Positions 1,920-19,367 of a stretch of 20,196 nucleotides of DNA are shown piece by piece. This DNA is from a virus. The notes beneath the pieces were generated by a model, which searched no databases, had not been told where the DNA came from, and worked only from the letters and a program-made list of their open reading frames with translations. The number at the start of each line of letters is the position of its first letter. Position 1 is the first letter of the stretch. The translations under genes were made by a program, and so were the position numbers. The stretch lies in IMG/VR virus record IMGVR_UViG_3300038369_000234, positions 1-20,196 of that record. The stretch is one strand, 5' to 3'.

Positions 1920-2153
1920 ATGGCAGATACAAAGAATTTTAGAGTAGAGCATGGAATAAACATTGGAACTACCGAAGTCGTAAATTCAAGTGGGAAGGTA
2001 CAAGCCTCAGCAGTATCTACATTAGACTCAGACGACATTACGGAGGGTTCGTCTAATACCTACTTCACGACAACAAGGGTTAACAACCATCTTGCAGATG
2101 CTTCCTCGGCAAAAACTATTAATAATGCCACAATTGACGGAGGAACCTTTTAA
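1920..2153 (+). CDS. Mini tail-fibre-like protein (77 aa)
   Basis: 77 aa, ATG with GGAG at about -9 and its own late promoter. Residues 1-28 (MADTKNFRVEHGINIGTTEV, then VNSSG) are paralogous to the first 28 residues of the following 759-aa fibre, and this block is a frequent N terminus of marine T4-like fibre proteins, probably an attachment segment. Residues 35-58 (LDSDDITEGSSNTYFTTTRV) match a module at residues 506-528 of the same 759-aa protein. The last residues, IDGGTF, match the end of the fragment at 1-528. So the gene is a head and a tail with the middle missing. Its TAA overlaps the next ATG (TAATG), implying translational coupling. It may be a genuine short fibre or adaptor, or a remnant of a deleted fibre gene; the intact promoter and ribosome site favour expression. 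Confidence 0.65.
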   Translation: MADTKNFRVEHGINIGTTEVVNSSGKVQASAVSTLDSDDITEGSSNTYFTTTRVNNHLADASSAKTINNATIDGGTF

Positions 2154-4432
2154 TGGCAGCCCAAAACTTTAAAATCAAAAACGGATTGACGGTAGGAACA
2201 ACCGAAGTTATTGATAGCTCAGGAGACTTAACGAGTGCAGCTTTTGGAACTGCAGCTCTTGAGGCAATCGATGACCAAGTAAATACACTCTTAACAGCAG
2301 GAACAGGAATGTCATTATCATATGATGACTCTGCTGGAACACTTACAATTAACGGACAAGTTGGTGATATCATTGGTGTCACCGCGGGAGACGGACTTTC
2401 AGGTGGAGGAACAAGTGGAACAGTATCACTTGCCGTAGACCTAAACGAATTAACAGCTGCATCAGTAGATATTGCAAACGATAGTATTGCAATTATAGAT
2501 GCATCAGACAACAGTTCTAAAAAAGAATCATTAGCAGACATTGCAACTGCAATGGCTGGAACAGGTATTACTGCAACTAACGGTGTTCTTTCTACAACAG
2601 TAGGTGATATTACATCGGTTGTTGCTGGAACAAACTTAAGTGGTGGTGGAACATCAGGAGATGTCACACTTAATGCAGAACAAAAATTAAACAATACAAC
2701 TGCACCATATTACCATAATGTAGTGGTGACAGTTAGTGGTGGTAAGTTCTTATTTGATGGACAGACTTCATCTCAAGAATTAAGACTTATGCCTTCTATA
2801 GTATACAGATTCGATCAATCAGACAGTTCAAACTCAAACCATCCATTAAGATTTTCTGAGACAGATGGTGGTTCAGAAATGTCAGATGGTTACACAATTT
2901 ATAACAAAGTAGGTACACCAGGCTCAAGTGGTGCATATACAGAAGTTGCATTTGACCAAGAAGCACCTCAAGTTATGTACTTCTACTGTTCAAATCACAG
3001 TGGAATGGGTAACTCAGTTGCACTTGGAAGTGGAGACATAGCAGGAGTTACTGCTGGAGACGGTCTCTCAGGTGGTGGTACATCAGGAACAGTAACACTA
3101 TCACTAAACAGTTCAGTAGCAGGAGATGGTCTTGCACATTCAAGTGGTGTATTATCTCTAGACTTAAATGAATTAACTGCAGCCACAGTCGATGTAGCTG
3201 CAGACAGTGTTCCAATTATTGACGGTACTGCAACTAGAAAAGAAAGTATTGCAGATATAGTAACTGCAGTTGCTGGAGATGGTTTATCTGCATCCAGTGG
3301 TGTTCTTGCAGTTGGTGTCGATGATAGTTCAATAGAAACAAATTCCGATGCATTAAGAGTTAAAGCATCAGGTGTTACAAATGCAATGTTGGCTGGATCA
3401 ATTGCAAATGCAAAACTAGCAAACAGTGCAGTTACAGTCACAGCGGGTGACGGTTTATCAGGTGGTGGATCAGTATCACTTGGTGGTTCCGTATCTCTTG
3501 CAGTTGGTGTAGATGACAGTTCAATAGAAACAGACTCAGATCAATTACAAGTTAAAGCAGGTGGTATCACAAATGCAATGTTAGCTGGTTCAATCACAAA
3601 TGCAAAATTAGCTAATTCAACTATTACAATCGCAGGAGCTTCTACTGCATTAGGTGGAACTGTACTTGCAGACACCGATGCGTTATCAGAAGGTTCTTCA
3701 AACTTATATTATACAAACGAAAGAGTTGACGATAGAGTTGCAGCTCTCATAGTTGGTGGTTCAAATATCACTGCAACTTATGATGATGCAGCGGGAACAT
3801 TAACACTTGCTGGTTCGGCTGCATATGCAGATGCCGATGCAAGACAAGCGATATCAGTCACAGATAATGGTGGAGATGGATCACTTGCATACAATAACTC
3901 TACAGGTGTTATTACATATAACGGCCCAAATGCATCAGAGGTGAGAACTCATTTCTCAGGTGGAACTGGTGTTACTATCAGTTCAGGTGAAGTTGCTATC
4001 GGTCAGGCAGTTGCAACAAACAGTAATGTTCAGTTTGCAAACTTAACACTTTCAGGTAACTTAACAGTTAATGGAACAACAACTACAGTATCATCAACAA
4101 ACTCTGTAATTGCAGATGCATTGATAGAATTAGGAAATGGAACATCAGGTTCACCTTCTAACGATGCTGGTTTTGTAATTGAAAGAGGAAGTTCTGACAA
4201 TGTATTTATTGGTTGGGACGAGAGTGCAGATGCAGTCACATTCGGTACAGGTTCATTTACAGGTGCATCAACAGGTAACTTAACTATCACACCGAGTGCA
4301 GTAAATACAGGTGCATTAACAATAACAAACGCAACAAATAGTGGTGGTACAGCAAGAAATGTATATCAATCGACTTCTGCTCCGACAGGATCAGATGGTG
4401 CGGTTGGTGACTTATGGATTTTATACTCATAA
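2153..4432 (+). CDS. Large modular tail fibre with cupredoxin-like insert
   Basis: 759 aa; ATG overlaps the upstream stop, with GGAGGA (2139-2144) as ribosome site. Residues 1-30 are the fibre N-terminal block. Most of the rest is Gly/Ser/Thr/Ala repeats: AGDGLSGGGTSGT-type units at about 78, 158, 301 and 431; two copies of DLNELTAA modules (96 and 337); two copies of a GVDDSSIET to NAKLANS module (388-427 and 452-491); SEGSSNLYYTNERVDDRV at 511-528; and NVQFANLTLSGNLTVNGTTT at 625-644. Residues 184-290 are different: a beta-domain with His230 (NHPLRF) and CSNHSGM at 279-285, resembling a type 1 copper site. The last 20 residues (SAPTGSDGAVGDLWILYS) are a common fibre terminus. Inferred role: long surface fibre, probably trimeric, for host recognition. 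The repeats could recombine with neighbours, consistent with the mosaic look. Confidence 0.78.
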   Translation: MAAQNFKIKNGLTVGTTEVIDSSGDLTSAAFGTAALEAIDDQVNTLLTAGTGMSLSYDDSAGTLTINGQVGDIIGVTAGDGLSGGGTSGTVSLAVDLNELTAASVDIANDSIAIIDASDNSSKKESLADIATAMAGTGITATNGVLSTTVGDITSVVAGTNLSGGGTSGDVTLNAEQKLNNTTAPYYHNVVVTVSGGKFLFDGQTSSQELRLMPSIVYRFDQSDSSNSNHPLRFSETDGGSEMSDGYTIYNKVGTPGSSGAYTEVAFDQEAPQVMYFYCSNHSGMGNSVALGSGDIAGVTAGDGLSGGGTSGTVTLSLNSSVAGDGLAHSSGVLSLDLNELTAATVDVAADSVPIIDGTATRKESIADIVTAVAGDGLSASSGVLAVGVDDSSIETNSDALRVKASGVTNAMLAGSIANAKLANSAVTVTAGDGLSGGGSVSLGGSVSLAVGVDDSSIETDSDQLQVKAGGITNAMLAGSITNAKLANSTITIAGASTALGGTVLADTDALSEGSSNLYYTNERVDDRVAALIVGGSNITATYDDAAGTLTLAGSAAYADADARQAISVTDNGGDGSLAYNNSTGVITYNGPNASEVRTHFSGGTGVTISSGEVAIGQAVATNSNVQFANLTLSGNLTVNGTTTTVSSTNSVIADALIELGNGTSGSPSNDAGFVIERGSSDNVFIGWDESADAVTFGTGSFTGASTGNLTITPSAVNTGALTITNATNSGGTARNVYQSTSAPTGSDGAVGDLWILYS
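2702..3022 (+). other. Cupredoxin-like domain inside the fibre gene
   Basis: This in-frame segment (residues 184-290) interrupts two copies of the AGDGLSGGGTSGT repeat region. It has hydrophobic strands (NVVVTVSGGKFLFDG, PSIVYRF), then NHPLRF with His230, and APQVMYFYCSNHSGMG with Cys279, His282 and Met285. The C-x2-H-x2-M spacing is that of amicyanin, and a preceding His about 50 residues upstream fits the fourth ligand of a type 1 copper centre. The ligands are seen directly; the fold and copper binding are inferred. Confidence 0.6.
3314..3625 (+). repeat. Duplicated 40-residue fibre module
   Basis: Residues 388-427 (3314-3433) and 452-491 (3506-3625) of the 759-aa fibre are near copies: both start GVDDSSIET, share SD-L-VKA-G-TNAMLAGSI, and end NAKLANS. 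The start-to-start distance is 64 residues. The DNA copies differ at synonymous sites, so the duplication is not recent. Confidence 0.8.
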
Positions 4433-4450: not shown

Positions 4451-5377
4451 ATGGCGTCAGGTTCACAGAAGGTTAAAACCCCTACTGGGTGGAATGCAAC
4501 CCAAGGTGCTTGGGTTAAAACAGCTTCATCCACATGGAAGGCAGTTGACCAAATTTACATAAAGACAGGCCCTGCAACATGGAATAATGCGTCAGGTCAA
4601 GAGGCAACGCAAATTCCATATCCTTACATTGCAAATGCTCAGAACCCTGTAATTAGACAAACAATTGTATCATATCCTTATATTGCAAATGCACAGGAAC
4701 CTAATATAAGGAATAGACAAAATCCTTACCCATACATTGCAAATGGACAGGAACCGAATATAAGAGATGCAAGGCAACCTGCTACATATCAACACAGGTC
4801 ACCTTTTACATACGATCATAGAAGTCCTACGACATATAGTTTCAGGTCTCCATCTACTTATCAGAATCCAGTGTCAGCACAGGAACCAAACATAAGAGAT
4901 GCAAGGCAGCCTGGAACTTATCAGTTTAGGTCTCCGTCTACCTATCAGTTTAGGTCTCCATCGACTTATGACCATAGGTCACCTTTTACATATAGAAGTC
5001 CAGTATCAGCACAGGAACCTAATATCAGGAGTTCTCAACAACCAAATATCAGGTCTGCTCAAGAGCCTAATATCAGAAACAATCAGGCACCGTTCACTTA
5101 TAATTATAGGTCACCATTTACATATAGAAACCCTGTAAATGCTCGACAGCCTAATATAAGAAGTTTCCAGTCACCGTTTACATATCCTGCTAACGCAAGA
5201 CAACCAGCAACCTATCAGGCACCTGCGAGGCAACCTTTTATTGCACAGGGAAGAAACCCGTTTACATATCAGGCACCTGCTAGACAACCTAATAATGCAT
5301 CTTATCAGTCACCTTATCAATATCAGGCAAGGGTGCCAGTTCAGTTGCCAGGCGGAGGGTCTCCACAGATTAAATAA
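4451..5377 (+). CDS. Pro/Tyr/Asn/Arg octapeptide-repeat protein with Trp-rich head
   Basis: 308 aa; ATG follows GTGAGGA (4441-4447), 18 bases after the fibre stop. Residues 1-48 form a small head with regularly spaced Trp and Lys (TGW, AWVKTASSTW, YIKTGPATW), a pattern met in phage fibre or baseplate-associated proteins. Residues 56-300 are low-complexity: octads with consensus x-x-[RQ]-[SQEN]-P-[FSN]-[TI]-[YR], such as DHRSPFTY, QFRSPSTY, SSQQPNIR and SAQEPNIR, with periodic 4-residue insertions of the RNPV or RSPV kind. All 37 prolines in 56-300 are at even residue numbers. The repeat has no Cys, Met, Trp or Lys and almost no Leu. It ends PGGGSPQIK. I do not recognise a named family. An extended beta-type or fibrous virion component is the likely role, judged from location and composition only. 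Confidence 0.72.
   Translation: MASGSQKVKTPTGWNATQGAWVKTASSTWKAVDQIYIKTGPATWNNASGQEATQIPYPYIANAQNPVIRQTIVSYPYIANAQEPNIRNRQNPYPYIANGQEPNIRDARQPATYQHRSPFTYDHRSPTTYSFRSPSTYQNPVSAQEPNIRDARQPGTYQFRSPSTYQFRSPSTYDHRSPFTYRSPVSAQEPNIRSSQQPNIRSAQEPNIRNNQAPFTYNYRSPFTYRNPVNARQPNIRSFQSPFTYPANARQPATYQAPARQPFIAQGRNPFTYQAPARQPNNASYQSPYQYQARVPVQLPGGGSPQIK
4616..5350 (+). repeat. Degenerate 24-bp (octapeptide) repeat array, first copy
   Basis: This encodes residues 56-300 of the 308-aa protein. Proline codons recur every 24 bp in runs, with 18+18 bp steps at RNPV-type junctions and a few 12-bp steps near the end. Units diverge at synonymous sites (for example AGGTCACC versus AGAAGTCC for R-S-P), so protein sequence rather than DNA sequence seems conserved. 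The period is a multiple of three, which explains the long open shadow frames here. Confidence 0.85.
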
Positions 5378-5379
5378 TT

Positions 5380-6174
5380 ATGCCACAAGCACCGTACATA
5401 GGACAAGCAAGACAACCAGTTCCGTTCACATTTCAGAACCCGTTTACATATCCTGCGAACGCGAGGCAGCCGTTTACTTATAACGCACAGAATCCGTTTA
5501 CTTATCCTGCGAACTATCAGAATCCGTTCACATATCAGACACCAGCTCGACAACCGAACACATATAACTACAGGTCACCGTTTACATATAGGAATCCTGT
5601 AAATGGTCGAGAGCCTAATATTAGGAATGCAAGGCAACCTTCTACTTATAACTATAGGTCACCGTTTACTTACAACTACAGATCACCTTTTACTTACAAC
5701 TATAGATCACCGTTTACCTATAGAAATCCAGTATCAGCACAGGAACCTAACATTAGAAATAATCAACAGCCTACGATTAAGAATAATCAACAGCCTACGA
5801 TTAAGAACAACCAAACACCATTCACATATGCCTATAGATCACCATTCACCTATAGAAATCCAGTGAATGCACAGGAACCTAATATTAGAAACCAACAAGA
5901 ACCTAATATTAGAGACGCACAACAACCTAATATAAGAGACAATCAGACTCCGTTTACCTACGATCATAGATCACCGTTTACATATGCAAGACAAGGACAG
6001 ACACCTGATACCTATTCATATAGAAGTCCATCAACATATCAGGTGATTGCAAATACGCAGAACCCATATAATCATAGAAGTCCTTCTACATATGCAAGAC
6101 AGGGAAGAACTCCTGAACCTAGATGGGATGGTGCAGCTCAACAACAGTGGCCAGGGACTCCAATCACCTCATAA
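5380..6174 (+). CDS. Second Pro/Tyr/Asn/Arg octapeptide-repeat protein, no head domain
   Basis: 264 aa, in a different frame and 2 bases after the stop of the 308-aa paralogue. It lacks the Trp-rich head and enters the repeat almost at once (QAPYIGQARQP). Repeat units include NYRSPFTY (three in a row at 91-114 counting the YRSPFTYN register), NNQQPTIK twice, DAQQPNIR and NQQEPNIR, with RNPV spacers. All 36 prolines from residue 5 to 247 fall on odd positions. The tail (TPEPRWDGAAQQQWPGTPITS, from 244) departs from the repeat. There is no proper Shine-Dalgarno near the ATG; a GGAGGG lies 21 bases upstream, so translation probably depends on coupling to the upstream gene. It may be a partner subunit of the 308-aa protein or a tandem duplicate that lost its head. 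No known family recognised. Confidence 0.7.
   Translation: MPQAPYIGQARQPVPFTFQNPFTYPANARQPFTYNAQNPFTYPANYQNPFTYQTPARQPNTYNYRSPFTYRNPVNGREPNIRNARQPSTYNYRSPFTYNYRSPFTYNYRSPFTYRNPVSAQEPNIRNNQQPTIKNNQQPTIKNNQTPFTYAYRSPFTYRNPVNAQEPNIRNQQEPNIRDAQQPNIRDNQTPFTYDHRSPFTYARQGQTPDTYSYRSPSTYQVIANTQNPYNHRSPSTYARQGRTPEPRWDGAAQQQWPGTPITS
5392..6120 (+). repeat. Degenerate 24-bp (octapeptide) repeat array, second copy
   Basis: This encodes residues 5-247 of the 264-aa protein. Proline steps are 12, 18 and 24 bp at the start, then regular blocks of four 24-bp steps followed by two 18-bp steps (prolines 79-155), loosening after residue 199. Near-identical neighbouring units occur, for example the two NNQQPTIK copies at about 5761-5808, which suggests recent local duplication. 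Confidence 0.85.
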
Positions 6175-6195: not shown

Positions 6196-7797
6196 ATGTT
6201 AGATAATATTAACACACTTGAAAAAGCACGCAATCATAACTTTAGAATGACCTTAGAGGAAGCTACTAAAGATTCTTCTAGACCAGGCTTCAAATTTGGA
6301 CATAAGGCATACAATCTTGGTACAATAGATTTTATGAGACCCGATACAGAAGGCTCTAAAAACTTTAGAGAAGTTCTAAATTATATTGTTAGACAATTAC
6401 CACCAATCAGAATAGTCCCTTGGAAGTATATTAAACCAAAGATAGATGCAAAAGAAATACAAACTTTTGGTCAATTACATCACAATGCAATACAGTATCA
6501 AAGATATTTACATCATGGGTGGACTGCACCTTTAAGACCTAATCATCCTTTAGGTGGTGGTTCAATGGACTTCATGAACTATGATGATGAATATCAAAAA
6601 ATATCAACTGTTAGTGACCATCCCGATTGTAATGAGCTAGAAGATCATGAAGAAAATTCTGTAAACTCAGTATACTATCACGCTGCCAAAGGTCATTGGT
6701 TGGTAAACAATATTCAAAAGGAAGGATTGAGACATCCAATACAAGGTCATACAAACTTAGGGGGAGGTGGATTCAAATATAAATTATCTATACATCCAGG
6801 CTCTATTAGATGTAAAGTATTTGAAACAATGGATGAACCTGAATTTCAAACTATAGTAACTGATTATGCAGATTGTTTCCCTGAATGTAAAGCATTGAGT
6901 GGTGATGAGATAATAAGCTTTTGGGAAGAACTGGGTATGGGTAGTGAATCAAAACATAATAATTTATCTGCAATATGGGTAGACGATGGAAAGTTAGAAT
7001 TCTCATTGTCATCTGTAGCTGGTTTAAATTTTAGAGAAGAAGTTTTTGAATTCAATAAAAAGGTTACGAAGTTAACTAAGAAAAAACCAGTTAACATTTA
7101 CTTAGGTTATGATTCAAATCATTCAGACTTATTTGATGTTGCAGAAAAATCTATACATGATAGTATTGAGATTATAAAATCAGGTGGAGTTGCAGAAGAA
7201 TACTTCAATGATTATAAAGTGGAAGTTAAGAAACTTGACATCAATGCAATTTCGGAATATACTAGAGAATATGCAAATCAATCTACTGAGTTTACTTACA
7301 GTAGATTCTTAATTCCATATCTAGAAAATTATGAGGGATTCAGCTTCTTCATAGATGATGACTACATATGGAAACATAATCCTATGAGTTTGTTCTACTT
7401 CTTAGACCCTGATAATGCTGTTGCATGTGTTCAGTATGATTTCAAACATCATGATGAAAACAAAATGGGCGGTGAGAAAAATGTATCATATCCTATGAAG
7501 TTATGGTCTAGTATGATGATATTTAACAACGGTCACGAAGATTGTAGAAAACTTACACCCGAAGTAGTTAATAACGAGAGTGGAATGTTTTTACATCAAT
7601 TCAAATGGACAGATAAGATAAGTAAGATTCCTCACAATAAAATTTGTACTGAGGGATACGATGATTCTTTTAACGAGACTCATCATGCAATCCATTATAC
7701 AAGGGGTGGGCCTTGGATAAAGGGTATGGATTATTCCCACATAAATATGTTAGACTTATATGAAAAACATAAAAGAGGATTGCCAAACAGCACCTAA
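6196..7797 (+). CDS. GT8-like glycosyltransferase with extra N-terminal domain
   Basis: 533 aa in two parts. Residues 298-515 look like a GT-A glycosyltransferase of the GT8-like kind: NIYLGYDS (300-307) as first strand and nucleotide-sugar loop, STEFTYSRFLIPYL (363-376), FFIDDDYIW (384-392) with the DxD metal motif at Asp387-389, KLWSSMMIFNN (435-445), LTPEVVN (453-459) and HYTRGGPW (500-507). Such enzymes move a sugar from a nucleotide sugar to an acceptor in the cytoplasm. Residues 40-235 are a separate domain; AAKGHWLVNNIQKEGLRHPI and YKLSIHPGSIRCKVFE resemble ParB-like folds, but this is weak. The gene follows the two repeat proteins and lacks a Shine-Dalgarno. The acceptor (repeat proteins, fibres or host surface) is unknown. 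Glycosyltransferase call firm by motif, N-terminal domain uncertain. Confidence 0.72.
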   Translation: MLDNINTLEKARNHNFRMTLEEATKDSSRPGFKFGHKAYNLGTIDFMRPDTEGSKNFREVLNYIVRQLPPIRIVPWKYIKPKIDAKEIQTFGQLHHNAIQYQRYLHHGWTAPLRPNHPLGGGSMDFMNYDDEYQKISTVSDHPDCNELEDHEENSVNSVYYHAAKGHWLVNNIQKEGLRHPIQGHTNLGGGGFKYKLSIHPGSIRCKVFETMDEPEFQTIVTDYADCFPECKALSGDEIISFWEELGMGSESKHNNLSAIWVDDGKLEFSLSSVAGLNFREEVFEFNKKVTKLTKKKPVNIYLGYDSNHSDLFDVAEKSIHDSIEIIKSGGVAEEYFNDYKVEVKKLDINAISEYTREYANQSTEFTYSRFLIPYLENYEGFSFFIDDDYIWKHNPMSLFYFLDPDNAVACVQYDFKHHDENKMGGEKNVSYPMKLWSSMMIFNNGHEDCRKLTPEVVNNESGMFLHQFKWTDKISKIPHNKICTEGYDDSFNETHHAIHYTRGGPWIKGMDYSHINMLDLYEKHKRGLPNST

Positions 7798-8373: not shown

Positions 8374-9081
8374 ATGGATATCAATGTTATACACATTGAT
8401 GAGCCTTTCCATATCAAGGAAATGCCTCTAGGTAACAATGTTTATGTTTTAGATGATTATCTTGAAGATGCTGTATTTCATGCAGTGAATCGAGACATGA
8501 CTCATTGTGCTTGGCAAAAAACAAATCAAGTAAATGGTAATCCCAATGATGGAAGAGGTGGTTTACCTAATCATCAGTTATGGGGATGTAATTTCTTTTC
8601 AAAGCCTGATATGAGGGATGGTCATTTGAATGGAATGAATGGTTATCCTAATTATCTAATTAGATACCTTGATAGAAAAATAAGAACAGACTTTGGATTT
8701 GATTGGGTTAGATTTCAATACGCTGGTGGTAACTCACAAACCCATGGACAACATGGAACTTGTCATTCAGATTGTGATGCTAATGATGAATGGAATCTTT
8801 CCTTTCTGTATTATCCTAACACATTTTGGAATCCAAACTGGGGTGGTAAATTAAGATTTTATAGTGAGATAATTCACGGTGGAATTTTAGAATTTATGGA
8901 TGAGTACGAAACTGGTACAGTTGATTTTGTACCAAATAGACTATTGATGTTTGATGGAAGATTACCACATGGTGCAGAAGCACCACATGAATCTGCAAGA
9001 TACATAGATAGGAAGTCTATTGTAATTAGAGGTGACGAGATAGTTTTAAAAGACGAGAGAGATAAGTATGCCGACTATTGA
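8374..9081 (+). CDS. 2OG-Fe(II) oxygenase, putative
   Basis: 235 aa, starting one base after the previous stop; no clear Shine-Dalgarno, so likely coupled. The double-stranded beta-helix motifs of Fe(II)/2-oxoglutarate dioxygenases are present: His131-Ser-Asp133 (CHSDCD) followed by EWNLSFLYYPN and WGGKLRFYSE, then a distal His199 (DGRLPHGAEAP) and a basic residue for 2-oxoglutarate, Arg209 or Arg213 (SARYIDRKSIVIR). Length and layout fit prolyl-hydroxylase-like phage oxygenases, which are common in T4-like cyanophages. Reaction: oxidative decarboxylation of 2-oxoglutarate to succinate with hydroxylation or demethylation of a substrate. The substrate is unknown; protein, nucleobase or small molecule are all possible. 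The next gene overlaps its end by 14 bases. Confidence 0.75.
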   Translation: MDINVIHIDEPFHIKEMPLGNNVYVLDDYLEDAVFHAVNRDMTHCAWQKTNQVNGNPNDGRGGLPNHQLWGCNFFSKPDMRDGHLNGMNGYPNYLIRYLDRKIRTDFGFDWVRFQYAGGNSQTHGQHGTCHSDCDANDEWNLSFLYYPNTFWNPNWGGKLRFYSEIIHGGILEFMDEYETGTVDFVPNRLLMFDGRLPHGAEAPHESARYIDRKSIVIRGDEIVLKDERDKYADY

Positions 9082-9988: not shown

Positions 9989-10660
9989 ATGTCAGTTAGA
10001 TTATTGTTTCCTACTTACTTGTTCGAGTTTAATCTCGTAGAGGAAGGATTGGTAACAGAGGAATATCTTTTATCATTGAAAAATGATATGGATGCAGTGA
10101 GAAAAAAAGACCCAGTTGGTAGACAAGTATCTAACGCATATACAGGTTGGCAATCTCAAGATGGCTTTGAGCAACGACCCGCCTGGGCAAAACTCAACCG
10201 TGTAATCAAGGACAAATATAATCTTGATGTTCTCCCTTGGTTGCGTGTAGATACTTCTCAGGCAAGTGTAAGTTTAGGTAATATGTGGGGTAATATAAAT
10301 GACAAAGGTGCATGGAATAAACCTCACAGACATAATGGTTGTTGGTTAAGTGGTGCATTTTATGTACATGCAGACGGTGATGAGGGTAATTTTGTTGCAA
10401 TAAAAGAGGGTGCAGATGTAGTTAGTGACTTCCCACATAACAACAAACAGAGAGAAACCTTCGAGGTATCACCAGTCACAGGAACCCTTCTACTCTTCCC
10501 TAGCGGTCTTATACACATGGTTGAACCTAATCCAACCACTAAAGATCGATATAGTGTTGCATTCAATACAGTTACACACCGAATGGGTTCTGAAACCGAT
10601 ATACCTATAGATTATCATTGGAATAGATTTGACTTAGATGACCCTAAAGTAAGGGGTTAA
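9989..10660 (+). CDS. 2OG-Fe(II) oxygenase-like protein (2OG-FeII_Oxy_5 type)
   Basis: 223 aa, starting 3 bases after the previous stop. The order of motifs matches the PF13759-type oxygenases: MWGNINDKGAWNKPHRHNG (99-117) with His113 and His115, WLSGAFYVHADGDEGNFVAI (119-138), GTLLLFPSGLIHMVEPN (165-181) with His176, and a basic residue in DRYSVAFN (186-193), Arg187. Unlike the HxD oxygenase at 8374, the metal loop reads H-x-H, which I believe is typical for this family. Predicted activity is 2-oxoglutarate-dependent oxidation of an unknown substrate. The N-terminal segment SVRLLFPTYLFEF is also family-like. It ends the accessory block; a late promoter for the next gene begins 5 bases after the stop. 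Confidence 0.72.
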   Translation: MSVRLLFPTYLFEFNLVEEGLVTEEYLLSLKNDMDAVRKKDPVGRQVSNAYTGWQSQDGFEQRPAWAKLNRVIKDKYNLDVLPWLRVDTSQASVSLGNMWGNINDKGAWNKPHRHNGCWLSGAFYVHADGDEGNFVAIKEGADVVSDFPHNNKQRETFEVSPVTGTLLLFPSGLIHMVEPNPTTKDRYSVAFNTVTHRMGSETDIPIDYHWNRFDLDDPKVRG

Positions 10661-10977: not shown

Positions 10978-11793
10978 ATGGCAATACCAAACAGTAAAGC
11001 ATCATTAAAAGAATATGTTAAAAGAAAACTGGGAGCTCCAGTTTTAGATATCAATGTGGACGATGACCAGTTTGATGATAGACTGGATGAGGCCATTCAA
11101 TACTTCCAAGAGTACCATTATGACGGTTCTATCAGAGTTTATCTCAAGCACCAAATAACAGACGCAAAGAAAACTACGATGAGATCAGATGAAACATTCA
11201 CAGAGAATGTAGCTGGAACTCATGCGTATGATAATGAACAAGTAAAACAACAACAAAATTATATCGTTTTACCTGAGTTTGTATTAGCCGTAAATAGAAT
11301 CTTCCCTTTCAATGACAAACATAATTTAAACATGTTTGATTTAAGATATCAGTTAAGATTGAATGATCTTTATGATCTATCTGCAACAAATATATTATAC
11401 TACGAAATGGTACAACAACATATTACCATGATGGATAATATACTTGTTGGTCAAGTACCGATAAGATATAAACAACACATGAATAGATTGTATCTTGATA
11501 TGGATATCGAAGCTCTAAGTGGTAACGAATTCATAATCATAGAATGTCATAGAAAAATTGACCCAACAGACTTCACAGATATCTACAATGATATGTGGTT
11601 GAAAAGATATTCAACTGCATTAGTGAAGTATCAATGGGGAGAAAATCTATCCAAGTTTGAGGGGGTTGCATTGCCTGGCGGGGTGACTTTAAATGCATCA
11701 GAAATGAAAGCACAAGCACAAGAGGAGATAACAAAACTAGAAGAGGAGTCTCGATTGAATTACGAACTTCCCGTCATGGACTTAATGGGGTAA
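10978..11793 (+). CDS. 13: Neck protein gp13 (head completion)
   Basis: 271 aa (T4 gp13 is 309). The N terminus, SKASLKEYVKRKLGAPVLDI then NVDDDQFDDRLDEAIQYFQEYH, is a strong signature of T4-like marine gp13, followed by VRVYLKHQ-type and VLPEFVLAVNRIFPF segments and a central IEALSGNEFIIIECHRKIDP strand region. The C terminus ends in a helical, acidic tail (KAQAQEEITKLEEESRLNYE). In T4, gp13 and gp14 form the neck collar that seals the filled head and connects it to the tail. The position, first of the 13-14-15-16-17-18-19-20 series, supports the call. Start is fixed by AAAGGA and the late promoter. gp14 follows after 4 bases. Confidence 0.9.
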   Translation: MAIPNSKASLKEYVKRKLGAPVLDINVDDDQFDDRLDEAIQYFQEYHYDGSIRVYLKHQITDAKKTTMRSDETFTENVAGTHAYDNEQVKQQQNYIVLPEFVLAVNRIFPFNDKHNLNMFDLRYQLRLNDLYDLSATNILYYEMVQQHITMMDNILVGQVPIRYKQHMNRLYLDMDIEALSGNEFIIIECHRKIDPTDFTDIYNDMWLKRYSTALVKYQWGENLSKFEGVALPGGVTLNASEMKAQAQEEITKLEEESRLNYELPVMDLMG

Positions 11794-11797
11794 GTGA

Positions 11798-12658
11798 ATG
11801 CCTACAAATAATTATTTTAATCATGCTGTAAAGACAGAACAGCACCTCTATGAGGATTTGGTAGTAGAATCATTACGATTCTATGGACACGATGTCCTAT
11901 ATCTACCAAGACAAATTGTAGAGGAAGACAGTATATTGAATGACGATGTTCAGTCAAGATTCGGTGACGCCTATTCTGTCGAGATGTATTTAGAGAACAC
12001 TGAGGGTTTCGAAGGAGAAGGAGACCTTGTTTCTAAATTTGGTGTTCAAATTCAAGAGGAAGCAACATTTGTAATGTCTCTCAGAACATGGGAGAGATTT
12101 ATTTCTCTTGACTCAAATCTTGCAACATCACTTAGACCTAATGAAGGGGATATAATATATTTCCCTCTTACAGGTTCAATGTTTGAAATAAATTTTGTAG
12201 AAGATCAAGACCCTTTCTTCCAGTTAGGAAAAATGTTTGTCTTCAAGATGAGATGTTCACTCTTCTCATACGGTGGAGAAGATTTCGATACAGGAACATC
12301 TGCAGACTTGGTAGAAGCAGATTCAGCTTACACAATAGAACTAACTATGCAAACTGGTGCTGGAAACTATACTCATGGAGAGAATGTAACAACAGTAATC
12401 AACAGTGTTACAACGACAGTTGGAGAGGTTGTACTATGGCAACCACAATCTAGAAAACTTACAATTAAGGATAATACTAGAACACTACAAGTGGGTGATA
12501 CACTAACAGGTGCATCATCAAGTTGTGCAAGAGTGATAGCTGCAATTACAGATGTCATGACATTTGGTACAGACCATTCTGCACAGAATGTAGAGTTCGA
12601 AGCTAAAGATAATGATTACTTAGACTTTAGTGAAGTAAATCCGTTTGGTGAACCATAA
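11798..12658 (+). CDS. 14: Neck protein gp14
   Basis: 286 aa (T4 gp14 is 256). The N-terminal half is typical: NNYFNHAVKTEQHLYEDLVV, ESLRFYGHDVLYLPR, RFGDAYSVEMYLENTEGFEG then GDLVSKFGVQIQEEATFVMS and RTWERF. Residues 120-165 include GDIIYFPLTGSMFEINFVED and FFQLGKMFVFKMRCSLFSY. The C-terminal part (about 190-265) is an additional beta domain with HGENVTTVINS, GEVVLWQPQSRKLTIKDN and QVGDTLTGASSSCARVI, a module seen in other marine phage virion proteins, and accounts for the extra length. It acts with gp13 at the head-tail joint. Its stop overlaps the gp15 start (TAATG), so expression is coupled. Confidence 0.9.
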   Translation: MPTNNYFNHAVKTEQHLYEDLVVESLRFYGHDVLYLPRQIVEEDSILNDDVQSRFGDAYSVEMYLENTEGFEGEGDLVSKFGVQIQEEATFVMSLRTWERFISLDSNLATSLRPNEGDIIYFPLTGSMFEINFVEDQDPFFQLGKMFVFKMRCSLFSYGGEDFDTGTSADLVEADSAYTIELTMQTGAGNYTHGENVTTVINSVTTTVGEVVLWQPQSRKLTIKDNTRTLQVGDTLTGASSSCARVIAAITDVMTFGTDHSAQNVEFEAKDNDYLDFSEVNPFGEP

Positions 12659-13707
12659 TGTTTGGAACTTATTTTTACAACGAAACTATAAAGAGATCGA
12701 TTTCAGTTTTCGGTACATTGTTCAACAACATTGATATCAAGAAAATTAAAGCAGATGGGACTGTACTCACTCAACAGAAAGTACCCATATCCTATGGCCC
12801 GAAACAAAAGTTTCTACTAAGATTAACAGAAGATGCAAAACAAAGAGATGGTGCAGTAACTTCTATATCTCTACCTCGTATGGCTTTTGAAATGACTGGA
12901 TTAGAATATGATCCGAGTAGACAACAAAATAAAATTATAAGAACACAAAAGACTGTAATGGAAACGAGTGATGTTGGAAAAAGAGGATTCCAATATCAAC
13001 CATCACCTTACAATATTAACTTCTCTTTATCAATACTTGCAAAGAACGCTATCGATGCACTTCAAATAGTAGAACAAATAGTTCCTTACTTCCAACCTGA
13101 ATATACCGTTGCAATGAAAATGGTTGACAGTATGAGTGAGGTAAGAGATGTACCAGTCATACTTAACTCAATTGCAATGGAAGATATGTATGAAGGTTCG
13201 TTTGAAGAAAGAAGAGTTATAGAATACACATTAGAATTTACTATGAAGACATACTTCTTTGGCCCTGTTTATACTGGAGAGGTCATCAAGAATGTTATCG
13301 AAAGAGATTATATCAATACTGATCTAAAAGCTGGGTTTACTACAACTCAAATTAACAATTCAGGATTGGTCAAAGAGGTTAAACACTATGAACCAGCTTT
13401 CGGTGAAGTTGCAAATGCAGTTTCTAACTCTCAAGGAGTGACCTTTGCAACTGCAATAAATAGTAAGATAAGTGTTGGTGACGAAGTATTCGGAACCAAT
13501 TTAACAACGAATCCTACCGTTGAAAGTATTGCAAGTAATAAGCTGTCAATAGTATTGAATAATGCAATTACAATAAATGCAAATACTACATTGAAATTTG
13601 TTGGTTCAGTTGATCCATCAGATTCATTTGTAGTTGCAGAAACGGTAACTTTTTATGATGAAGGTGGGGGTAATACATATTCAGAAGACCTCGCTGGTGA
13701 TGCTTAG
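12658..13707 (+). CDS. 15: Tail sheath stabiliser gp15 with C-terminal beta extension
   Basis: 349 aa, clearly longer than T4 gp15 (272). MFGTYFYNETIKRSISVFGT, LFNNIDIKK, KVPISYGPKQKFLLRL, ISLPRMAFEMTGLEYD, RGFQYQPSPYNINFSLSILA and VIEYTLEFTMKTYFFGPVY (about 194-212) are the conserved gp15 core. gp15 caps the tail end and binds the last sheath and tube rings before joining to the neck. Residues from about 255 on (SQGVTFATAINSKISVGDEV, then FGTNLTTNPTVESIASNKLS) form an added beta module, with an acidic Gly-rich end (EGGGNTYSEDLAGDA). The start overlaps the gp14 stop by one base; there is no strong Shine-Dalgarno. The extension may decorate the neck; that is inference. Confidence 0.9.
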   Translation: MFGTYFYNETIKRSISVFGTLFNNIDIKKIKADGTVLTQQKVPISYGPKQKFLLRLTEDAKQRDGAVTSISLPRMAFEMTGLEYDPSRQQNKIIRTQKTVMETSDVGKRGFQYQPSPYNINFSLSILAKNAIDALQIVEQIVPYFQPEYTVAMKMVDSMSEVRDVPVILNSIAMEDMYEGSFEERRVIEYTLEFTMKTYFFGPVYTGEVIKNVIERDYINTDLKAGFTTTQINNSGLVKEVKHYEPAFGEVANAVSNSQGVTFATAINSKISVGDEVFGTNLTTNPTVESIASNKLSIVLNNAITINANTTLKFVGSVDPSDSFVVAETVTFYDEGGGNTYSEDLAGDA

Positions 13708-14673: not shown

Positions 14674-15230
14674 GAAGATTAATAATTAGTAATTTTAGAG
14701 TTGGTAGTTGGTACTTACATGAAAAGATTGTAAACAACAAGTCAGGAGCTTGTGAAGGTTTAGGAGAAATATCATGTGACTTCTACGAGGATAGAACCAC
14801 AAAGGTCAATAATTGGTTGACAAAAACAAATGACATTGTAGGTAAATTTCATCCTATACAATGGGAAGGTGGAGATCATAGACAGGTAATTGAGTTTGCC
14901 GATGTAATCTTTTATTTACAAAGAGAAAACACTTTAGAACAAGTTGTTAGTTATGCAATTTCAATGATATCAGATGGGCCTAGACCAAATTCACTTGCAT
15001 CATCAAAAGCTAGAACAGCACGATTAGATGGATACGAGATCAACGATGATCTTTTAAATGCAAGTTATCAACGATTAAAAACTCAACATGATATGATACA
15101 AGATATTTACAATGAGTTTCCAAGTACAGTTTTGACACTGGAAACCGATTGTGCAAATGATCCGTATCCAAATAGGTATGAATACACGGGGTCTTGGACA
15201 CCGCCAGAAAATTTATGGTTAAACCAGTAA
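14670..15230 (+). CDS. Sulfotransferase-like protein
   Basis: 186 aa from the ATG at 14670, which overlaps the upstream TGA (ATGA) and follows GGAGAA (14658-14663); a TTG at 14652 is in frame but less likely. The N terminus, RLIISNFRVGSWYLHEKI, has the R-x-GS-type phosphate-binding loop (Arg10, Gly12, Ser13) expected for PAPS-dependent sulfotransferases of the Stf0 kind, and LQRENTLEQVVSYAIS (83-98) resembles the LxR-x5-QAVS motif of the 3'-phosphate site. The C-terminal part is helical (NASYQRLKTQHDMIQDIYNE). The length is short for a sulfotransferase. If active it would transfer sulfate to an unknown acceptor. Alternative: another P-loop-like kinase fold. Its last 16 bases overlap gene 17. 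Confidence 0.5.
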   Translation: MRRLIISNFRVGSWYLHEKIVNNKSGACEGLGEISCDFYEDRTTKVNNWLTKTNDIVGKFHPIQWEGGDHRQVIEFADVIFYLQRENTLEQVVSYAISMISDGPRPNSLASSKARTARLDGYEINDDLLNASYQRLKTQHDMIQDIYNEFPSTVLTLETDCANDPYPNRYEYTGSWTPPENLWLNQ

Positions 15231-16819
15231 ACGAAGGATATCTCGGTAACACTCTCATTAAGAGAGCTGGTGTCGAGACACAGTATACCGAGGAAGAACT
15301 GAATGAATACTTAAAGTGTTCTAAAGACCCAGTTCATTTCATCGAAAATTATACTCAGATCATATCCCTAGATGAGGGTATGGTTCCTTTTCAACTTCGT
15401 GGGTATCAAGAAAACCTGATAGAGTTTTACGATGAGAACAGATTTAACATAGTTCTTGCATCAAGACAGAGTGGTAAGTCAATCACATCATGTGCATACT
15501 TACTATGGTATCTATTATTTCATCCCGAAGTAACTGTAGCTGTTCTTGCTAACAAAGGTGCAATTGCAAGGGAGATGATTGCAAGAATCGTAACCATGTT
15601 AGAGTCTGTACCATTCTTTTTACAACCAGGCGTTAAGATTCTTAACAAAGGATCAATAGAATTTTCAAACGATTCAAAAGTAGTTGCAGCTGCAACATCT
15701 TCAAGTTCGATTCGTGGTATGTCAATCAACTTACTATATCTCGATGAGTTTGCATTCGTAGATGATGCAGATACATTCTATACTGCAACATATCCCGTTA
15801 TCACATCAGGTAAAGATTCAAAGGTTATTATAACCTCAACTGCAAACGGTGTAGGTAATATGTTCCATAGAATATACGAGTCTGCAGTACATGAACAGTC
15901 AGAATACAAGCACTTTATAATAAACTGGTACGATGTGCCGGGCCGAGATGAAGAATGGAAGGAGATGACCATAGCAAACACCTCAGAGGCCCAGTTTGAA
16001 CAAGAGTATGGTAACTCATTCTTAGGTACTGGTAACACATTAATTAACTCAGACACCTTATTAGGTATGAAAGCATGGGAACCTGAATGGAACAGGGATG
16101 GTGTCAACATATATAAGAAACCCAAAGAGGGACATGAATACATCTGTACGGTTGATGTTGCAAAAGGTAGAGGTATGGACTTCTCTACATTCACAGTATT
16201 TGATGTATCAACACAACCTTTCGAACAGGTTGCAACATATCGTGACAGTATGATAAGTCCCATGCTGTTTCCCGATATTATAAATAAGTATGTACGAGCT
16301 TACAACGAAGCATTAGTAATTATAGAAAATAATGCAGAGGGTGGAATGGTTGCAACTCAGTTGCACTATGATATTGAATATCCAAATGTCTTTGTACAAG
16401 GACAATTAAAAGCAGAGGATATTGGAGTAACCGTTAATAAAAAGATTAAACGGGTAGGATGTTCTACACTCAAAGAATTGTTAGAGGAAAAACGATTAAA
16501 TCTTGTAGATCGTGCAACGATAACAGAATTGATGACCTTTGTCACTAAGGGTAACTCATATGAGGCTGACAGAGGATATCATGATGACATGGTAATGAAT
16601 TTAGTATTATTCAGTTGGTTTATAACCACAGAATACTTCTATCATCTAACTGATAAACAAGTGAAAGACTTGTTATATGCAGAACAACAAAAGATGATCG
16701 AAGACGATATACTCCCAGCAGGGGTCTTTGGAGAAGTAAAACCCGAAGATTCTACCTTTGTAGACAGTGAGGGAACTCGCTGGTACTCAAAAGAGATGGG
16801 TAATGAAGTAAAATGGTAG
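15215..16819 (+). CDS. 17: Large terminase subunit gp17 (packaging ATPase-nuclease)
   Basis: 534 aa from ATG 15215 (T4 gp17 is 610); an upstream TTG at 15194 is rejected. The ATPase motifs are complete: Walker A SRQSGKS (83-89), Walker B LYLDE (Asp177, Glu178), and coupling motif TSTAN (207-211). The RNase H-like nuclease follows, with Asp314 (CTVDVAKGRG), Glu371 (LVIIENN) and Asp457/458 (GYHDDMV) as metal ligands. The enzyme docks at the portal, pumps DNA into the prohead and cuts concatemers. The N-terminal ECSKDP-type segment (here CSKDPVHFIENY) is typical of this branch. Genes 16 and 17 are split by a two-gene insertion. The gene overlaps the previous one by 16 bases, and no strong Shine-Dalgarno is seen. 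Confidence 0.95.
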   Translation: MVKPVNEGYLGNTLIKRAGVETQYTEEELNEYLKCSKDPVHFIENYTQIISLDEGMVPFQLRGYQENLIEFYDENRFNIVLASRQSGKSITSCAYLLWYLLFHPEVTVAVLANKGAIAREMIARIVTMLESVPFFLQPGVKILNKGSIEFSNDSKVVAAATSSSSIRGMSINLLYLDEFAFVDDADTFYTATYPVITSGKDSKVIITSTANGVGNMFHRIYESAVHEQSEYKHFIINWYDVPGRDEEWKEMTIANTSEAQFEQEYGNSFLGTGNTLINSDTLLGMKAWEPEWNRDGVNIYKKPKEGHEYICTVDVAKGRGMDFSTFTVFDVSTQPFEQVATYRDSMISPMLFPDIINKYVRAYNEALVIIENNAEGGMVATQLHYDIEYPNVFVQGQLKAEDIGVTVNKKIKRVGCSTLKELLEEKRLNLVDRATITELMTFVTKGNSYEADRGYHDDMVMNLVLFSWFITTEYFYHLTDKQVKDLLYAEQQKMIEDDILPAGVFGEVKPEDSTFVDSEGTRWYSKEMGNEVKW

Positions 16820-16885: not shown

Positions 16886-18859
16886 ATGGCATTTCAAGTA
16901 TCACCAGGCGTACAAGTCAAAGAAGTTGACTTGACAAATGTTGTGCCTGCAGTATCTTCTACAGTAGGAGCATTCGCAGGTTCATTTAGATGGGGCCCTG
17001 TTGATGAAGTAGTATCAGTTTCAGATAGCAAAGGTTTAGTAGATCATTTCTACACACCTGCCGATACAGACGCAGGTGCGGAGGATTTCTATTCTGCAGA
17101 GGCTTTCTTAAGATATGGTTCATCATTAAAAGTTGTTCGTGTTGCAAGTTCAACAGCCTATAATGCAAACAATGGTGGTGACACTGATGCAAGCATTAAG
17201 AATCTAGATGCATACCAGTCAGGTTTTGAAGACGGTGGTGCAGCTGGTACAATAGGTCAATGGGCTGCAAAATATCCAGGCGCAATTGGAAACTCACTAA
17301 AAGTTAGTGTTTGTGCATCTCCTGATGCATATTTCAATGACAATGTGACTACTCTAGATGCAGAAGAAGCTGCTGGTCAAACAGTAATTTCAGTTACATC
17401 TGAAGCAGGATTCCAAATCAGGGATATTGTTAGGTTCGGAACCGATACTCAAGAGTATCGTGTTACTGCAACAGCAACAGGAACAATTACCGTAGAAGCC
17501 CTCAATCAACCAGCTGGAACTGGTCTAGTTAGCACAGTTGCTAACTCAACACAAGTTCACAGATATTGGGAGTTTTATAATCAATTTGATAAAGCTCCAG
17601 GCACATCTGCATCTGCAACTGCAGCTTCAGGTAGTGCAGACGAAATTCATGTAGTAGTTGTAGACGAAGACGGAGTTATCTCAGGAAAACAACACGAAGT
17701 CCTAGAAACTTACGGATTTGTTTCATGTGCATCAGACGCGAAGAACGCAGAAGGTGCTTCAAATTACTACAAAAATGTAATTAACAATCAATCAGATTGG
17801 ATATGGTGGACTGGTCACAGTACATCAACTCACCCAGCTGCAAACAGTGTTCACACTCATGCATTATCAGGTTCTACTGCATTCGGTAGACCTTCTGCAC
17901 CAATTAGTAGTTCACTTGCAGACGGAGCTGATGGAGGTTTACCATCACCAGCAGTTAAATATGCTGGATATGTGGATAACTTCGGTGACGCAGAAACTCA
18001 GGATGTATCATTCTTAATCGTAGGTTCAACTAGAACTTCAAATGGTGACATTCTTGCAGATCACAATTCAATCGTAAATCAATTAATCCAAGTCGCAGAA
18101 AATCGTAAAGACTGTATGGTAATTGCTTCTCCAAGGAGAGCATCAGTTGTTAATGTTGCTTCTGAGTCAACTCAAAGTTCAAATGTTGTTGCAGACTACG
18201 CGTCAGTAACATCAAGTTCTTATGCAGTTCTAGATTCAGGTTGGGTATACCAATACGACAGATACAACGACAAATACTGTTGGGTGCCCGGCAACGGTCA
18301 TACAGCAGGTATCATGGCAAGGTCAGACTTATTGAGAGACCCATGGTTCTCACCAGCAGGATTCTCAAGAGGACAATACCTAGGAATTACAAAACTTGCT
18401 TTCAACCCATCACAAGGATCAAGAGATGATCTTTATCAAGCAAGAATTAATCCTATCGTAACCTTCCCAGGCCAAGGAACAGTTCTTTTCGGTGATAAAA
18501 CTGCACTAAGTACACCATCTGCATTCGATAGAATCAATGTCAGAAGGTTATTCATCGTATTAGAAAAGGCAATTGCAGTTGCAGCTAAATCACAACTCTT
18601 TGAATTCAATGATGCATTCACTAGAGCACAATTTAGAGCTGCAGTAGAACCTTTCCTAAGAGATGTTAAGAACAGAAGGGGTCTAGTAGACTTCTCAGTA
18701 TTATGTGATGAAACTAATAATACTGATTCAGTCATCGACAGAAACGAATTTGTTTGTTCAATATTCGTGAAACCTGCTAGAAGTATTAACTTTATCACTC
18801 TTAACTTCGTGGCTGCAAGGTCAGGGGTTGAGTTTGAAGAAATCTACGGAGCAGTTTAA
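16886..18859 (+). CDS. 18: Tail sheath protein gp18
   Basis: 657 aa, nearly the length of T4 gp18 (659). The N terminus, FQVSPGVQVKEVDLTNVVPA, and GAFAGSFRWGPVDEV, LRYGSSLKVVRVA (75-87) are standard T4-like sheath. Residues about 155-225 (TVISVTSEAGFQIRDIVRFG, TQEYRVTATATGTITVEALN) are an inserted beta-domain typical of marine T4-like sheaths, followed by HRYWEFYNQFDKAPGTS. The conserved C-terminal domain includes NPIVTFPGQGTVLFGDKTAL, FDRINVRRLFIVLEKAI, FNDAFTRAQFRAAVEPFLRD and NFVAARSGVEFEEIYGA. Subunits stack in rings around the tube and contract on infection. It has its own late promoter and AGGAGA site; gene 19 follows after 10 bases. Confidence 0.95.
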   Translation: MAFQVSPGVQVKEVDLTNVVPAVSSTVGAFAGSFRWGPVDEVVSVSDSKGLVDHFYTPADTDAGAEDFYSAEAFLRYGSSLKVVRVASSTAYNANNGGDTDASIKNLDAYQSGFEDGGAAGTIGQWAAKYPGAIGNSLKVSVCASPDAYFNDNVTTLDAEEAAGQTVISVTSEAGFQIRDIVRFGTDTQEYRVTATATGTITVEALNQPAGTGLVSTVANSTQVHRYWEFYNQFDKAPGTSASATAASGSADEIHVVVVDEDGVISGKQHEVLETYGFVSCASDAKNAEGASNYYKNVINNQSDWIWWTGHSTSTHPAANSVHTHALSGSTAFGRPSAPISSSLADGADGGLPSPAVKYAGYVDNFGDAETQDVSFLIVGSTRTSNGDILADHNSIVNQLIQVAENRKDCMVIASPRRASVVNVASESTQSSNVVADYASVTSSSYAVLDSGWVYQYDRYNDKYCWVPGNGHTAGIMARSDLLRDPWFSPAGFSRGQYLGITKLAFNPSQGSRDDLYQARINPIVTFPGQGTVLFGDKTALSTPSAFDRINVRRLFIVLEKAIAVAAKSQLFEFNDAFTRAQFRAAVEPFLRDVKNRRGLVDFSVLCDETNNTDSVIDRNEFVCSIFVKPARSINFITLNFVAARSGVEFEEIYGAV

Positions 18860-18869
18860 GGAGTAAAGA

Positions 18870-19367
18870 ATGGCAACAATAGACGAATTTAAAGCACAAC
18901 TGATTGGTGGTGGCCCAAGACCTAACCGATTCAGAGTCTTCATTCCTAGAAGTGGAAACCGTATTGAGTTCCTTTGTAAAGGAGCTGCAATTCCCGCTGC
19001 TACCCTAGGTGAGATTCCAGTAAACTTTAGGGGTCACATCCTAAAGTTAGCAGGAGATAGAACATTCGAAGATTGGTCAGTGACGATCATAAACGATAGT
19101 GAGTTTTCTGCAAGGTCTGCTCTAGAAGCATGGCAACAAGACATTCAGGAACTTGATTCAGGTGTAGGTATGGCATCTAATGACTACCTATTATCAAGAG
19201 CCTTTGTCGAACAATTAGGTAAAGACGACGCTGTCCTTGCGAGATATGAGTTCTTCAACATGTTTCCAAAGAACATTGCTGCTATCGAATTAAATTACGA
19301 AACAGTAGATGCATTGGAGGAATTCACAGTTGACTTCACATATTCTCACTGGGAAAGAGTCAAGTAA
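18870..19367 (+). CDS. 19: Tail tube protein gp19
   Basis: 165 aa (T4 gp19 is 163). RPNRFRVFIPRSGNRIEFLC, KGAAIPAATLGEIPVNFRGH, ILKLAGDRTFEDWSVTIIND (about 51-70), SARSALEAWQQDIQ and LNYETVDALEEFTVDFTYSHWE are the usual tube fold: a beta-barrel with an alpha element that stacks in hexameric rings. The sequence PVNFRGH and GDRTFEDW are hallmarks of T4-like tubes. The ATG follows AAGGAG (18858-18863), which overlaps the gp18 stop. It is co-transcribed with the sheath and forms the DNA channel of the tail. Confidence 0.95.
   Translation: MATIDEFKAQLIGGGPRPNRFRVFIPRSGNRIEFLCKGAAIPAATLGEIPVNFRGHILKLAGDRTFEDWSVTIINDSEFSARSALEAWQQDIQELDSGVGMASNDYLLSRAFVEQLGKDDAVLARYEFFNMFPKNIAAIELNYETVDALEEFTVDFTYSHWERVK

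Follow-up and report, generated by a model that had tools for sequence, protein, structure and literature searches.

Adjacent proline-parity proteins of an uncultured T4-like marine virus as candidate antiparallel partner chains of one fibre

Results

Two repeat-protein genes between the tail-fibre and neck genes

The DNA analysed here (the window), a fragment of 20,196 nt (20 kb), comes from an uncultured T4-like marine virus (IMGVR_UViG_3300038369_000234). It carries two adjacent genes for repeat proteins, A and B, the start codon of B lying 2 bases past the stop codon of A (Table 1). A PHROG search of the window found tail-fibre-like genes upstream. A and B sit between the last of these and the neck genes gp13, gp14 and gp15 (10978-13707), which are followed by the terminase (about 15200-16819), the sheath (at 16886) and the tube (at 18870). 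The same place, with the fibre gene before and gp13 after, was conserved in the A-B loci that had room for it.

Table 1. Features of the A-B locus in the window (all coordinates are those of the window).
Feature	Coordinates	Strand	Basis
Tail-fibre-like protein, directly 5' of A	2153..4432	+	PHROG tail fibre match, 8e-18; 40/40 A-B loci with room
Protein A, 308 aa	4451..5377	+	Open reading frame, proline parity, 27 aligned homologues
A, base domain, residues 1-36 (QKVKTPTGWNATQGAWVKTASSTWKAVDQIY)	4451..4558	+	Unpaired at i + j = 301; near-invariant columns in homologues
A, residues 37-300, putative strand antiparallel to the whole of B	4559..5350	+	33 coincident prolines at i + j = 301
A, Gly-rich tail GGGSPQIK, past the N-terminus of B	5351..5374	+	Tail lengths and sequences
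Protein B, 264 aa, putative partner strand	5380..6174	+	Open reading frame, parity, full-length pairing with A 300-37
533-aa protein, directly 3' of B	6196..7797	+	phrog_28018, unknown function; 50/50 loci
2OG-Fe(II) oxygenase, prolyl-4-hydroxylase-like group	8374..9081	+	PF13640, 9e-8; 49/49 loci
Second 2OG-Fe(II) oxygenase, different from the first	9989..10660	+	PF13759, 2.5e-19; 48/48 loci

Two further frames of the window call for comment. A 77-aa open frame at 1920-2153, kept in 37 of the 37 loci with room, shares its N-terminal motif with the 759-aa fibre protein, which overlaps it by 1 base. The terminase was called at 15194-16819 with a TTG start, overlapping the preceding frame; a better start would seem to be the ATG at about 15215 (MVKPVNEGYLG). 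The nearest terminase was that of Phage C48C1 (56%); no A- or B-type protein was present in the stretches of C48C1 and Melnitz examined. The gene psbA was looked for in 11 records with these genes, up to 153 kb, and found in none, so that there is no sign of a cyanophage.

Relatives in IMG/VR were numbered in hundreds (266 stretches for A, 95 for B). In sequence searches, A had no match over threshold in Pfam, PHROGs or PDB, and B had no PHROG match, no PDB match and one sub-threshold Pfam match. When A, its N-terminal part, B and two of the C proteins described below were compared by tblastn with about 50,000 annotated phage genomes, no credible match was obtained, though low-complexity masking may hide some; no relative was found in prokaryote genomes. 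HTVC008M, a T4-like pelagiphage, has annotated curli genes CsgF, CsgG and CsgB (L161:7562-9557), another filament system in a related phage.

Prolines keep to one parity

The first-pass annotation of this DNA had claimed that all prolines from residue 56 to 300 of A are on even residue numbers and all those from residue 5 to 247 of B on odd ones. A recount gave exactly these figures (37 of 37 and 36 of 36), and the spacings in both ranges were only 2, 4, 6, 8, 10 or 12, odd ones being absent as described. When the residues were shuffled (20,000 trials for each protein), at most 29 of the 37 prolines of A and 28 of the 36 of B fell on one parity, and the binomial chance is about 1e-11 for each protein. 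The parity of the prolines is real and chance is ruled out. The lack of Cys, Trp and Lys that had been attributed to A holds for its repeat region, residues 56-300. Most of the units that begin with proline are distinct (36 of 40 in A, 35 of 39 in B), and therefore the repeat region is not one copied repeat. A collagen-like fibre was considered and rejected, with only 11 Gly in the 308 aa of A and 6 in the 264 aa of B, a two-residue rhythm and no Gly-X-Y triplets.

The rule extends to homologues, where the annotation had proposed to look for it. In 148 non-redundant proteins, 94.9% of the proline spacings of 12 or less were even. Tyr, Phe and His were almost always on the parity opposite to proline (4407:135, 1950:146 and 1001:48, opposite versus same), and Ile mostly on the same parity (2296:417). 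Within the paired cores of A and B described below, prolines on the rule parity versus the other numbered 2829:0, and in a held-out set 978:0, which gives 3,807 against none in total.

A and B match in one antiparallel register

The proline spacings of A read backwards are those of B read forwards. With residue i of A placed opposite residue 301-i of B, 33 prolines coincide in the window pair, against 20 in the next antiparallel register and 22 in the best parallel one. Shuffling the units of B with their lengths kept (2,000 trials) gave a mean of 13.4 coincident prolines and a maximum of 22. Parallel pairing, and self-pairing of A or of B, were rejected because they scored lower than antiparallel A:B.

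One alternative is that each protein forms a self-trimer, a triple beta-helix of octapeptides like that of T4 gp5. The 8-residue units would suit such a structure, and residues 122-154 of B gave a weak Pfam match to Gp5_trimer_C (PF22178, E 0.36). However, the score of this match was 11.4 bits against a cut-off of 30.9, the uniform octapeptide VxGxxxxx is absent, and the units, which start with P, are of 8, 6, 4, 10 and 2 residues, those of 6, 4 and 10 being common. In addition, the best self-register of A brought 21 prolines together, well below the 33 of A:B. A trimer of this type is thus most improbable.

The annotation had also pictured a regular beta-type fibre or solenoid. Its idea of an extended beta-type strand with the prolines on one face is strongly supported by the two-residue rule and by the partner pairing, but its idea of two similar, stand-alone fibres or solenoids is not, since A and B are antiparallel partners that complement each other and agree in length. 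The unit lengths (8/6/4) match the partner chain only, which speaks against a solenoid built from one of the two chains by itself. We consider it very likely that the antiparallel partnership of A and B, overlooked in the annotation, is the cause of the parity.

The register was then compared across marine viral contigs, which gave 50 distinct A-B pairs. Written as the sum k of facing residue numbers, it exceeded the length of B by 36 in 35 pairs, by 37 in 8 and by 38 in 1, and in 43 of the 50 the last residue of B stands opposite residue 36 or 37 of A, the end of the A N-terminal domain. This offset is independent of the length of B, which ranges from 222 to 562 aa. As many of the loci are related, non-redundant sets and partner-swap controls were used. 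In 32 non-redundant pairs, each tried with 31 foreign partners, no foreign B fitted better than the natural one for any of the 32 A proteins; in the reverse swap no foreign A was better for 31 of the 32 B proteins, the exception being L031, with one better foreign A.

Insertions and deletions between close relatives obey the same relation. All 36 indels listed are of even length. Between L061 and L135, A differs by +30, +10 and -10 and B by -10, +10 and +30, at mirror places. Paired changes were also found for L044/L045 (+18 and +18), L140/L144 (+46 and +46) and L007/L008 (-88 and -88), the place of the indel being ambiguous within tandem repeats in the last two comparisons. The length match is broken by 44, 88 or 18 residues, in one gene only, in L013, L017, L018, L031 and L039; repeat collapse in metagenome assembly is a likely reason, and real strain variation may be an alternative one.

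Facing units are complementary

Units that face each other in this register are complementary rather than alike, as in PFTYxHRS:PNIRxAQE, PFTYRN:PVSAQE, PFTY:PARQ and PYPYIANAQE:PFTYARQGQT. The aromatic counts of facing 8-mers are inversely correlated (r = -0.86, n = 618). Enriched pairs on the proline face are P:P, R:I, T:Q and N:D/S, and on the other face F:Q/E, L:E, Y:A/G, H:R and S:N. Avoided pairs, observed versus expected, are R:R (0 versus 76), T:T (1 versus 80), H:Y (0 versus 48) and F:F (1 versus 43). Much of the complementarity is at the level of whole units. Within one unit class, covariation links position 2, the residue after proline, to position 8 straight across (z 28) and to position 6 on the same face (z 37), and most other positions of that class are without it.

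To score pairs independently of proline, a leave-one-out residue table without prolines was applied to the 32 non-redundant pairs. Against all shifts and all foreign partners, the own register with the own partner was best in 32 of 32, with a mean of 1.23 bits per pair. For 13 A-B pairs retrieved later and unlike the training set (the held-out pairs), the best register by this code was the length of B plus 36 or 37 in all 13.

Antiparallel complementarity shares the geometry of sense and antisense strands, so the mirror relation might be an artefact at the DNA level, B having arisen from the reverse complement of A or by inverted duplication. Codons of A compared with the reverse complement of the facing B codons were at chance, base identity being 0.27, 0.22 and 0.29 at the three codon positions, where 0.25 is expected. 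This origin is refuted for the window pair, and we give it practically no weight in general.

All data come from metagenomic contigs and the analysis is one of sequence only. On this footing, the A and B chains were shown to be length-matched and antiparallel in a single register, with proline opposite proline and complementary units.

A second pair, C:D

In many contigs with enough flank, a second set of genes lies upstream. It consists of C (MADEIYIN...QQPYQGQ), which is often followed immediately by D. The table trained on A:B gave a single best register in 19 of 19 C:D pairs, so the residue pairing preferences could be transferred from one pair system to the other. The best register was the length of D minus 29 to 37 in 18 of the 19 pairs and minus 14 in L126, which leaves D overhanging the start of C by 29-37 residues and, in L126, by 14. 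The C:D pairs nevertheless appear less regular than A:B: the code score is negative in L050, L051, L058, L059, L064 and L071, and weak, though best, in L050, L051 and the L058 group. The lengths of C:D (k 225-359) differ from those of A:B, and thus C:D would not be a co-extensive third and fourth strand. C:D would form a second, independent arm.

Where D is missing as a separate gene, the phage has a longer C with the C-terminal motif of D at its end. The same table gave a self-hairpin with end-k of 31-37 in L001, L003, L030, L031, L042 and L127 (weak in L127); it was less clear in L021, and L026 and L060 showed none clearly. In the nearest relatives of the window, C and D would be fused to one self-pairing chain. 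The fused chains at L001:2696-4159 and L003:2347-3939 are self-complementary, as if a hairpin version of the two-chain fibre. The base domain of A gave a weak match to the C-terminal domain of D (hhalign E 0.001, probability 21%), and the two may be homologous.

Base and tip

The two ends of the paired region are unlike. The C-terminus of B (RWDGxxxQQWPxTPIxS) is conserved and, in the register, adjoins the A base domain. At the other end, the position taken by the Gly-rich tail of A is occupied in about half of the homologues by a Hint/intein-like domain of 156-193 aa, which starts where B ends and is absent from the A of the window. Pfam matches in A homologues were to Intein_splicing, Vint and Hint (L034, Intein_splicing 2e-8; also L056, L042 and L029). 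In the A homologues at L034:497-1813, L029:6595-7950, L042:10001-11410, L056:4946-6373 and L136:8718-9980, such C-terminal domains lie exactly past the paired region, start with Cys-Phe and mostly end with His-Asn and a short tail.

Structure prediction

For the structure prediction that the annotation had proposed, A was run as an AlphaFold monomer. The pLDDT was 37, and short strands appeared in the base domain only (pLDDT 50-60). For a hairpin segment of L002 in which A reads through into B, the pLDDT was 43 and secondary structure was absent. These values speak neither for confident order nor for confident disorder. These runs used 27 (A) and 10 (hairpin) sequences, and in the hairpin model, from L002 and relatives, the stops between intact neighbours were read as Gly, as a modelling device only.

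The pLDDT below 50 across the repeats, together with a composition rich in Q/N/Y/R/P, could mean that both chains are disordered and that the regularity is one of repeat expansion in a low-complexity, Pro/Tyr-rich sticky protein. Disorder gives no reason to expect a single antiparallel register, mirrored indels, a code that carries over to C:D or a complete lack of wrong-parity prolines among 3,807, and we regard it as improbable to a high degree. The chains may well be disordered before pairing. AlphaFold gave no structure, and the two-residue rhythm and the absence of prolines from the inner parity fit a two-stranded antiparallel beta ribbon.

Discussion

A and B are, with high probability in our judgement, two halves of one fibre, and from the pattern of their residues we infer a long two-stranded antiparallel beta ribbon. 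Extended beta strands have a two-residue rhythm, and here such a rhythm is kept for hundreds of residues. When two strands pair antiparallel, the residues of one parity direct NH and CO to the partner chain and those of the other parity direct them outward; proline is without NH. Both chains would thus be extended beta strands hydrogen-bonded to each other, with all prolines at outward, non-hydrogen-bonded sites and an inner edge free of NH-less residues. The ribbon would zip shut, while its proline-studded outer edges resist growth into a sheet. This outward arrangement of the prolines would explain the parity rule, the equal lengths and the need for even indels. At about 0.33 nm per residue, the 264 residues would make a ribbon of about 88 nm, and in other phages its length would reach about 185 nm. 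Its base end would consist of the A N-terminal domain and the B C-terminus, both highly conserved, and its far end of the A C-terminus and the B N-terminus, with a variable tip that is Gly-rich or a Hint domain.

A possible, if doubtful, alternative is that A and B are antiparallel in register within a larger assembly, such as a stack of ribbons, a sheet of several chains or a double-stranded helical solenoid. Isolated two-stranded ribbons would rarely be stable, non-proline residues would leave NH and CO free on the outer edges, and a second ribbon could stack against the aromatic face. However, unit lengths match the partner only, and scores fall far in other registers and in parallel fits, so that any further neighbour must be independent of unit length.

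The conserved base, the variable tip and the place beside fibre genes suggest that the ribbon of A and B is an arm of the virion, and we suppose, with less assurance than for the ribbon itself, that it is probably a tail fibre or adhesin arm. The pair may instead be some other filament, extracellular or intracellular, made late in infection. Enzyme genes on the 3' side (the 2OG oxygenases and the glycosyltransferase-like protein) would accord with this; however, the pair always comes directly after a tail-fibre-like gene and before gp13 and gp14, and a conserved base with a variable tip is typical of fibres. A filament outside the virion therefore seems rather unlikely.

The neighbouring enzymes raise the question of modification. 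The 533-aa protein may be glycosyltransferase-like, a FIDDDYIW motif being the one basis of this assignment, and the first oxygenase is a possible modifier of fibre prolines by hydroxylation. Close homologues of the oxygenase are found in A-B phages wherever the flank is long enough, and remote homologues are not; a dedicated link between oxygenase and fibre is suggestive only. That the glycosyltransferase-like and prolyl-hydroxylase-like genes modify the arm may be the case, but is speculative.

Nothing comparable was found in the literature on two-chain beta fibres or parity repeats, and several known systems are partly similar. In the tandem beta-zipper, a disordered repeat chain becomes ordered by antiparallel strand addition along an array. 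The staphylococcal FnBPA repeats on fibronectin F1 modules resemble A:B in such antiparallel, in-register pairing, which for A:B is apparent from the sequences; however, their partner is a row of folded modules, while B is a repeat chain of the same kind as A, encoded side by side with it. The C-terminal triple-stranded beta-helix of T4 gp5 is likewise fibrous and octapeptide-based with a strict alternation of inside and outside, but it is a parallel homotrimer of VxG octapeptides, whereas A:B would be heteromeric and antiparallel with mixed units of 8, 6, 4 and 10. The T4-like tail fibres (phrog_30742 and its relatives, encoded nearby) share the neighbourhood and, as far as can be inferred, the order from base to variable end. 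They differ in being homotrimers, as known tail fibres are to our knowledge, and A and B lack PHROG matches. Antiparallel heterodimeric coiled coils also consist of two matched repeat chains with one register and residue pairing rules, but theirs are helical heptads, whereas A and B have a two-residue rhythm and a proline every 4-10 residues, which excludes helices. The domains that end many A homologues right past the paired region, but not the A of the window, are of the Hint/bacterial intein-like type (PF14890, PF14623, PF01079).

Taken together, we propose that A and B form a natural protein duplex with a transferable pairing code, in which separately encoded, extended chains would recognize each other antiparallel, in the manner of nucleic acid strands, along a length of more than 250 residues. 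At least two orthogonal duplexes (A:B and C:D) would serve the virus as arms, the prolines of which may be hydroxylated and the tips processed by Hint domains. We put the probability of this reading at roughly 0.7. If it is true, the fibre would have a heteromeric architecture unlike that of homotrimeric phage fibres, and nature would provide a case of two long proteins that find each other through a residue pairing code that can be read. The predictions are a 1:1 complex, a single register and defined edges, one outer and one inner. Self-assembling ribbons could be designed by such a rule, and a gene cluster without a name, present in hundreds of marine viral contigs, would acquire a function.
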